From assembly GCA_022614805.1 (NCBI GenBank), contig JAKEHY010000015.1:62001-126000 (forward strand): a DNA stretch of 64,000 nucleotides, read 5' to 3'. The notes beneath the pieces are model-generated. The model was not told the origin of the DNA. It saw only the letters and a list, made by a program, of their open reading frames with translations, and did not search any database. How positions within the stretch are numbered: the first letter of the stretch is position 1; every line of letters begins with the position of its first letter. The DNA is from Candidatus Zixiibacteriota bacterium (GTDB lineage Bacteria; Zixibacteria; MSB-5A5; DSPP01). Both the position numbers and the translations under genes were made by a program. Positions 15,537 through 52,864 of the stretch are shown piece after piece.

Positions 15537-16241
15537 ATGACTGTGAGACAAAGACATGGGAGGAGGGATTCTTCCCGAAGACGACTGCATCACCAGCCTT
15601 TCTTTGTACTCATTTTAACAGTGATTTCATTTTTGGGGTTGACCAGAGCGGGTTGGAGCGGCCAGGCCCCGGCAACGGACTCACTTAAAACCGAAAGCAT
15701 TGACCGCTGCGGGAATCCAAAGGCCGTCAGCCTGCCGATTCAAGGCCGGACAAATTCGGGTCAATCGGAAGGGGTTGCCAGTCGGGGCGAGAAACTCGTC
15801 CTTGAAGGCGGCAAGGGAACGGCGTATTTCTTTTTGGGTTCGCTTTGCCCCTGCACGGACGCCCACAGGCACTCCATTATGGAACTGATGTCCCTGGCGC
15901 CCAAAAAAAGAATCAAGTTGGTGGCCGTGTTTCCCAATAAGGGAGAGTCGGTCGAGCTGGTGGAGCATTTTTTCAAAGGCATTGGATTTAAGATGACCTA
16001 TATCATCGACTCGACCAACCGCTGGGTCAGAAAATTCGACGCCAAAAAGACGCCACAGGTCTTCTTGGTGAACGAAAAAGGACGGGTGGTCTATTCCGGG
16101 CCAATTGACGACTCGGTGGAGAATCTGGGACGGGTCAAGAACGCCTATCTCAAAAACGCTGTTTTGGATTTGGCGGACGGCCGTCCGGTGGCCATTCCGC
16201 GGGCCGAAGGAAGCGGTTGCTGGATAGTGTGGCACCGATAG
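15537..16241 (+). CDS. Exported redoxin-domain protein
   Basis: 234 residues with a basic N-terminus and one signal or anchor helix (about 21-40). A thioredoxin-like fold follows, with C-P-C-T-D in the position of the active site (about residue 104), then a cis-proline K-T-P-Q-V-F-L-V and the redoxin-type ending G-S-G-C-W-I-V. This group (AhpC/TSA-like redoxins) often lies beside copper or heme proteins. The C-P-C arrangement is unlike classical C-x-x-C thioredoxins, so peroxidase or copper-handling roles are equally open. It follows nirK by 33 bases. Confidence 0.65.
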   Translation: MTVRQRHGRRDSSRRRLHHQPFFVLILTVISFLGLTRAGWSGQAPATDSLKTESIDRCGNPKAVSLPIQGRTNSGQSEGVASRGEKLVLEGGKGTAYFFLGSLCPCTDAHRHSIMELMSLAPKKRIKLVAVFPNKGESVELVEHFFKGIGFKMTYIIDSTNRWVRKFDAKKTPQVFLVNEKGRVVYSGPIDDSVENLGRVKNAYLKNAVLDLADGRPVAIPRAEGSGCWIVWHR

Positions 16242-36934: not shown

Positions 36935-36974
36935 CCCCCTCTCCATTCAATGGAGAGGGGGCCAGGGGGTGAGG
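36935..36974. repeat. Solo copy of the CCCTCTCCA palindrome
   Basis: CCCCCTCTCCA and TGGAGAGGGGG pair around TTCA, then GGGGGTGAGG. The same core and tail form the ends of the DUF559 element at 52.3-52.8 kb. Confidence 0.75.
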
Positions 36975-52249: not shown

Positions 52250-52290
52250 TATTTCAGATACAAGCCGAACGCCAGCCCTTCTGTATTTTA

Positions 52291-52317
52291 CACCTCACCC
52301 CCTGACCCCCTCTCCAC
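52291..52317. repeat. Truncated outer copy of the CCCTCTCCA palindrome
   Basis: CACCTCACCCCCTGACCCCCTCTCCAC lacks the second arm of the hairpin. Oriented like the left terminal repeat of the DUF559 element just downstream; probably the scar of an older copy. Confidence 0.6.
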
Positions 52318-52322
52318 AAATA

Positions 52323-52819
52323 CACCTCATCCCCGGCCCTTCTCCACGCGTGGAGAAGGGGGAAAAACACCGTTTCGTCCTCCCTCTCCATTTGATGGAG
52401 AGGGAGTTAGAGGGTGAGGTGTCTTTTGGCCGCAACGGCAACAATCTTCGCTAAAACCCTTTCCGTTCGTTTCAGCACTTCCTCATTATCAAATTTCATC
52501 ACCCGCAATCCTCTTCCTGCCAGCTCTTCTTTCCTGATTTTATCGTATTCCCTCTGCTCGGCTTGATTATGCACTTTGCCTTCCAATTCGACGACCAGGC
52601 CTGCCTCGACACAGTAAAAGTCGGCAATGTAGCGACCCAAGGGATGCTGCCGCCGGAATTTCAGCTCGCTCAAGTGGCGGTTTCGCAGGCACTTCCACAA
52701 AAGTTTTTCTGCCGTAGTCGACTCTTTACGAAACTTTCGGCAAAGTTCAAAAACATAAGCCGGAATCATGACTGTCGTTCTCCCTTCTCCACTTGTGGAG
52801 AAGGGTCGGGGATGAGGTG
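52323..52819. mobile_element. DUF559 element with 38-bp terminal inverted repeats
   Basis: The left end 52323-52360 and right end 52782-52819 are inverted copies at 35 of 38 positions. Each is itself a hairpin (CCCTTCTCCAC/GTGGAGAAGGG) plus an outer CACCTCATCCCCG arm. A related palindrome (52382-52421) lies just inside the left end. Between them is a single gene, a DUF559 endonuclease. Solo palindromes of the same family lie at 36935-36974 and 52291-52317. No transposase is present. Confidence 0.65.
52407..52769 (-). CDS. DUF559 endonuclease-like protein
   Basis: 120 residues from ATG 52769. An earlier in-frame ATG (52850) would translate the terminal palindrome and is unlikely. R-K-E-S-T-T-A-E-K-L-L-W, F-R-R-Q-H-P-L-G, D-F-Y-C-V-E-A-G-L-V-V-E-L-E-G and H-N-Q match DUF559, a family of the very-short-patch-repair-like PD-(D/E)XK fold. 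D-F-Y and E-L-E-G hold the likely metal-binding residues. It may cut DNA at the palindromes that surround it; this is inference. Confidence 0.85.
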   Translation of the reverse strand: MIPAYVFELCRKFRKESTTAEKLLWKCLRNRHLSELKFRRQHPLGRYIADFYCVEAGLVVELEGKVHNQAEQREYDKIRKEELAGRGLRVMKFDNEEVLKRTERVLAKIVAVAAKRHLTL

Positions 52820-52864
52820 TCTTACCGGAGTTGAACTGGGGTTGAGACACTTGCTACAAGCCCC

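Follow-up and report, generated by a model that had tools for sequence, protein, structure and literature searches.

Repeats of the BoxC/PIT/TM class occur in Escherichia coli K-12 and are tied to genome instability, and intrastrand-triplex repeats were reportedly the subject of earlier work by Hoyne and Maher. The triplex motif has the consensus CCCTCNCCCN3-6GGGNGAGGGN3GGGNGAGGG (Holder et al. 2015, PMC4666352), in which a second loop of TTA defines type A and one of CCG defines type B, and inverted pairs of the motif in E. coli always combine an A with a B unit (PMC4666352). Triplex folding of TMECO has been demonstrated in vitro, no stable triplex was found in vivo by Holder et al. using DMS footprinting, and no mobility enzyme has been identified for these repeats (PMC4666352); according to work cited in PMC4666352, PIT elements act neither as promoters nor as terminators in E. 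coli. The second group of close relatives, the REP/REPIN-RAYT systems (PMC3733652, PMC3116915, PMC8266576), resembles the locus described here in several ways: the palindromes are short and carry an unpaired tag on one side, they occur alone or as inverted doublets, they bracket a low-copy enzyme gene, and several independent families can share a genome. The enzyme of our locus is, however, a PD-(D/E)XK nuclease whereas RAYT is a Y1 HUH transposase, and a purine third-strand tail takes the place of the GTAG (or CGTC) tag; because the defining transposase and tag are missing, the element falls outside REP/RAYT, though it is built alike. CGTC-tagged and untagged REPs (Di Nocera et al. 2013, PMC3733652) are palindromic repeats described as having no dedicated transposase, but differ in tag and stem.

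The window, a stretch of 64,000 nucleotides from the genome of a Candidatus Zixiibacteriota bacterium, had received a first-pass annotation that described a DUF559 endonuclease gene between hairpin-forming inverted repeats and proposed that an endonuclease, not a transposase, spreads or maintains the palindromes. Most of the anatomy stood (Table 1): positions 52323-52360 and 52782-52819 are inverted repeats matching at 35 of 38 bases, within a wider repeat (52312-52369 and 52773-52830) that is 83% complementary over 58 nt, and the alignment score of 33.5 compares with a mean of 8.8 and a maximum of 18.0 in 1,000 dinucleotide shuffles. Each end holds a hairpin, 52337-52360 being a perfect 12+12 palindrome from which 52782-52805 differs at two central bases, and the DUF559 gene (PF04480, E=7e-34), on the minus strand, is indeed the sole gene between them. 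The further copies reported at 52382-52421 and 36935-36974 are both full, each with hairpin and purine tail, while 52291-52317, listed as a solo palindrome, is no palindrome by itself because it is a truncated half copy (tail and left arm only). Positions 52322-52422 make up an inverted doublet of one CCG-type and one TTA-type unit, with the stop codon of the DUF559 gene within the second unit. A PD40 beta-propeller gene adjoins the element on the left.

Table 1. Features of the DUF559 element and of related repeat units in the window.
Feature	Coordinates	Strand	Basis or description
DUF559 (YcjD-like, PD-(D/E)XK) nuclease gene	52407..52769	-	Pfam, alignment, AlphaFold2 model
Triplex-motif unit upstream of DUF559 start	52782..52820		Hairpin CCCTTCTCC-ACTTGT-GGAGAAGGG, TCG, GGGATGAGG
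CCG-type triplex-motif unit, outer half of doublet	52322..52360		Inverted partner of 52782-52820
TTA-type triplex-motif unit, inner half of doublet	52380..52422		DUF559 stop codon inside
Truncated unit, tail and left arm only	52290..52316		Half copy, no palindrome by itself
Solo unit without DUF559 gene	36935..36974		Full copy, hairpin and purine tail

Judged by pattern, the window palindromes belong to the BoxC/PIT/TM intrastrand triplex motifs, a known class of putatively triplex-forming repeats that the first-pass annotation had missed. A full unit runs from a pyrimidine arm through a loop, a purine arm and a second loop of 2-4 nt to a purine tail (for example GGGATGAGG or GGGTGAGG), and units stand alone, pair up as inverted doublets or flank the nuclease gene as inverted copies. 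The window units share with BoxC/PIT/TMECO the three blocks, the TTA and CCG second loops, the intergenic setting and the occurrence as singles and as inverted pairs joining type A with type B; they differ in that the known repeats were previously without a linked gene or enzyme, whereas here a DUF559 gene is bracketed across phyla, and in that the stems vary from genome to genome. The purine tail was present in 105 of 136 hairpins near DUF559 genes compared with 15 of 308 other palindromes, and a strict TMECO-like pattern occurred 33 times near DUF559 genes (18 loci) against 17 times in the remainder of about 700 kb.

Across the whole genome from which the window comes (G000), the pattern CCCTCYCCN{2,12}GGRGAGGG is present in 70 copies, against 1 for the pattern read backwards, and a second DUF559 gene lies inside a second palindrome family. 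Among 58 relatives, every one of the 16 with a strong DUF559 match had five or more palindromes, as did 12 of the 42 without one (Fisher p=4e-7); among 97 genomes of the phylum, the same held for 16 of 23 with DUF559 and for 12 of 74 without it (p=3e-6). Both p values are optimistic, since the sets share members and the genomes are related to one another. Fewer than five copies of the searched pattern were present in 7 of the 23 positive genomes, and the 12 negative genomes with five or more show that the palindromes are in part also spread where the gene is absent. One of the latter, the one-contig genome G002, carries 60 palindromes, and no hidden DUF559 gene was found in eight stretches between its close palindrome pairs. 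Such motif-rich, DUF559-negative genomes could be remnants after gene loss or could reflect another driver. The palindromes of G002 (L193-L206) have a common terminal TTAGT/TCAGT after the purine tail, similar to a tag. An open frame of the same genome (L207, 906-1514), which starts with MRKIKYQNWIYEV and resembles a regulatory protein, has two palindrome units near its start, and the sequence reads as if the repeats had entered the coding sequence in frame.

A profile scan of species genomes, for which the profile was built from four DUF559 proteins (a profile of all 17 being too diverse), provided 80 DUF559 loci from more than ten phyla, with usable flanks for 72 DUF559 genes and 272 ORFs within the same loci as controls. 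In this sample, whose loci were chosen for their similarity to flanked proteins and whose flanking fractions may carry that bias, the expectation that DUF559 genes lie beside palindromes more often than by chance was supported: an upstream hairpin was present at 52 of the 72 genes and at 6 of the 272 control ORFs, and hairpins on both sides at 30 and 1, respectively, upstream hairpins being commoner than downstream ones. About 28% of the 72 genes lack the typical upstream hairpin, so that DUF559 genes without flanking palindromes do exist in part. A flank inverted-repeat score of at least 18 was reached at 33 of 78 DUF559 loci (one of which, L060, is a run of N) and at none of 449 controls. 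Palindrome density peaks sharply at distances of up to 250 bp from the gene, where purine-arm-first palindromes of like composition are almost missing; chance or base composition as the cause was rejected by the reversed-pattern, purine-first and control-ORF tests. At most loci the flanks are entire inverted units and not split halves of one unit. Most of the strong DUF559 matches in the class to which the window belongs lie between triplex-type hairpins, with stems that differ by genome, and the examples inspected include loci of Neisseria gonorrhoeae, Picosynechococcus, Azospirillum and Deinococcus. Similarity of protein and of arm were correlated (r=0.26; r=0.20 for pairs below 50% identity; permutation p=0.0005), for which shared ancestry may be a partial cause. 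No flanking hairpins of this kind were seen at four Vsr-type genes (L003, L028, L029, L034). The first of these (G000 C7, L003 1233-1659) follows a putative DNA methylase gene and is itself followed, after about 400 bp, by a triplex-type palindrome. In the open-access literature searched, we found no paper linking DUF559 or ycjD to palindromes or triplex repeats; the repeat class itself is known.

The E. coli gene ycjD is a DUF559 gene (164.2 bits for PF04480, 1e-48) flanked by sapF and fabI, and a TMECO-like unit lies on its downstream side; among complete E. coli genomes, 3,364 of 5,426 contain 80% or more of the sapF-ycjD-fabI stretch used as query. The ycjD-negative genomes were considered as clean empty sites and dropped, an efflux operon adjoining fabI in the two inspected, E2348/69 and A22; this operon, eef, is present where ycjD is absent (PMC12817139). 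The E. coli control genome gave no PF04480 match in the genome search; that strain may lack ycjD, or the search may miss it.

Orthologous sites with and without the element, which the first-pass annotation suggested looking for, do exist. Genome G001, of the same genus as G000 and about 84% identical beside the site, keeps the doublet without a DUF559 gene (C44, about 15790-15890, L131). The PD40 beta-propeller gene is there reduced to its first codons at the repeat doublet; since this gene is largely missing, a deletion in G001 is possible. Along a 19-kb stretch with three palindrome sites in G000, two are empty in G001 and the third is common to both. A further palindrome element, of the form ACCCCAC..CTTCGGCCCCCGC.. 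then TTAATCCCTCCCCTCAAGGGGAGGG (L150 near 3640 and 16808; G000 C1 near 123642 and 136808), is present in G000, whereas G001 lacks it at the orthologous positions. In Deinococcus psychrotolerans, a DUF559 gene whose inverted repeats match at 55 of 57 aligned positions separates paaD from paaZ; in strain QL22 the two are adjacent. No clear target-site duplication or exact junction was found at the compared empty sites, whose flanks are 74-84% identical.

The product of the window gene has 120 aa if the start is placed at the ATG closest to the domain, the open frame itself extending further, to 52850, and scores 116.3 bits for PF04480 against a Pfam cut-off of 20.6. Alignment of 17 relatives showed D50 and E61 to be invariant and residue 63 to be acidic. 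The AlphaFold2 model (mean pLDDT 87) has as its nearest structural neighbours the solved DUF559 protein 3hrl and then the homing endonuclease I-Bth0305I (3r3p), with weaker matches to PvuRts1I/AbaSI and Vsr (1vsr); the modelled protein thus has the PD-(D/E)XK fold and acidic catalytic residues, and DNA cutting is predicted. The Caulobacter DUF559 protein VsrA is needed for the DNA-damage response in cells without a cytosine methyltransferase (PMC12907096), which bears indirectly on DNA cutting by the family. Vsr/VsrA and I-Bth0305I-type nucleases have the same fold as DUF559 by search and model, but Vsr-type genes here are without flanking hairpins and the intron context is absent. A reading of the gene as a defence gene was dropped, PADLOC giving weak matches only.

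Spread of the palindromes by RAYT (Y1 HUH) transposases, with the DUF559 gene as a bystander, could be argued from the occurrence of Y1 genes in 55 of the 58 genomes, including four in that of the window; yet many Y1-bearing genomes have no triplex-type palindrome at all, and the four (L035, L036, L037, L038; G000 C25, C4, C26, C27) each lie in an unrelated REP family (for example GTAGCCGACACTTTAGTGTCGG and CGTAGGCGGCATTTTAATGCCGC), as does the one G002 gene inspected, which is likewise among its own REPs. As the genes are near-universal and the REPs of those examined differ, RAYT was rejected as a simple driver and this origin is highly improbable. It is also quite improbable that the repeats are cis-regulatory, the upstream hairpin controlling expression, with its purine arm as Shine-Dalgarno sequence, and the downstream hairpin serving as terminator. 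The excess of upstream hairpins and the RBS-like spacing of GGAGAAGGGAGAACGACAGTCATG in the window agree with such control, but it leaves unexplained the tens of dispersed copies, the downstream inverted copy and the third-strand tail, and the inactivity of PIT elements in E. coli noted above speaks against it.

The DUF559 gene might instead be cargo, or a homing-type gene settling in triplex repeats that are moved or formed otherwise; the nearest fold outside DUF559 is indeed a homing endonuclease, and repeats without the gene are known, the doublet of G001 among them. Flanks that are mostly whole inverted units instead of one split unit, and a palindrome copy number that tracks DUF559, make this improbable. 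A better, though still rather unlikely, case can be made for processing only, in which DUF559 would be a nuclease of repair type, resolving hairpins or triplexes at sites such as stalled forks; the repeats would arise otherwise, and joint inheritance and transfer would keep the gene close to its substrate. The Vsr-like fold of the model, the DNA-damage phenotype of Caulobacter VsrA (PMC12907096) and the repeat-bearing genomes without DUF559 agree with this, but a repair enzyme acting in trans needs no two-sided inverted bracket, and the control genes have none such. The sequence would fit a nuclease that spreads the repeats as well as one that merely processes them.

What is demonstrated is the anatomy of the element, the linkage of gene and repeat over many phyla, the scattering of palindromes through genomes, and presence or absence at orthologous sites; everything beyond a gene bracketed by repeats is what we infer from these. 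The association put forward by the first-pass annotation holds, lying far above controls, extending over many phyla and including ycjD of E. coli; the role in spreading or maintaining the palindromes is plausible and not demonstrated, because some DUF559 genes lack palindromes and some palindrome-rich genomes lack the gene. With about balanced confidence, we favour a REP/REPIN-like repeat system in which a PD-(D/E)XK nuclease, YcjD/DUF559, takes the place of the RAYT transposase as resident enzyme. Most likely, the nuclease would act on the folded motif and host repair would do the copying or joining, in a manner similar to REP/RAYT. The nuclease gene bracketed by inverted units would be the master copy; its product would recognise the folded motif where it is exposed in single-stranded form, as may happen at a replication fork, and would cut or nick beside it; host repair would then copy or join the unit, and repeats and bracketed gene would thereby persist and spread jointly. 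Several points count against this explanation: a PD-(D/E)XK fold alone does not join strands, DMS footprinting by Holder et al. found no stable triplex in vivo (PMC4666352), motif-rich genomes without a DUF559 match exist, and about a quarter of the DUF559 genes have no typical upstream hairpin. More tentatively, DUF559/YcjD nucleases might be dedicated mobilisers of BoxC/PIT/TM repeats across bacteria, forming selfish, nuclease-driven elements with a folded hairpin or triplex end and no transposase or recombinase.

As a DUF559 gene lies between inverted triplex repeats in many phyla, it is the first candidate enzyme for spreading or maintaining them, and with ycjD the linked nuclease offers a concrete candidate partner that can be studied in a laboratory organism. 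If true, a dispersed palindrome system would be possible without an HUH transposase, and a protein family still called a domain of unknown function would have a testable role.
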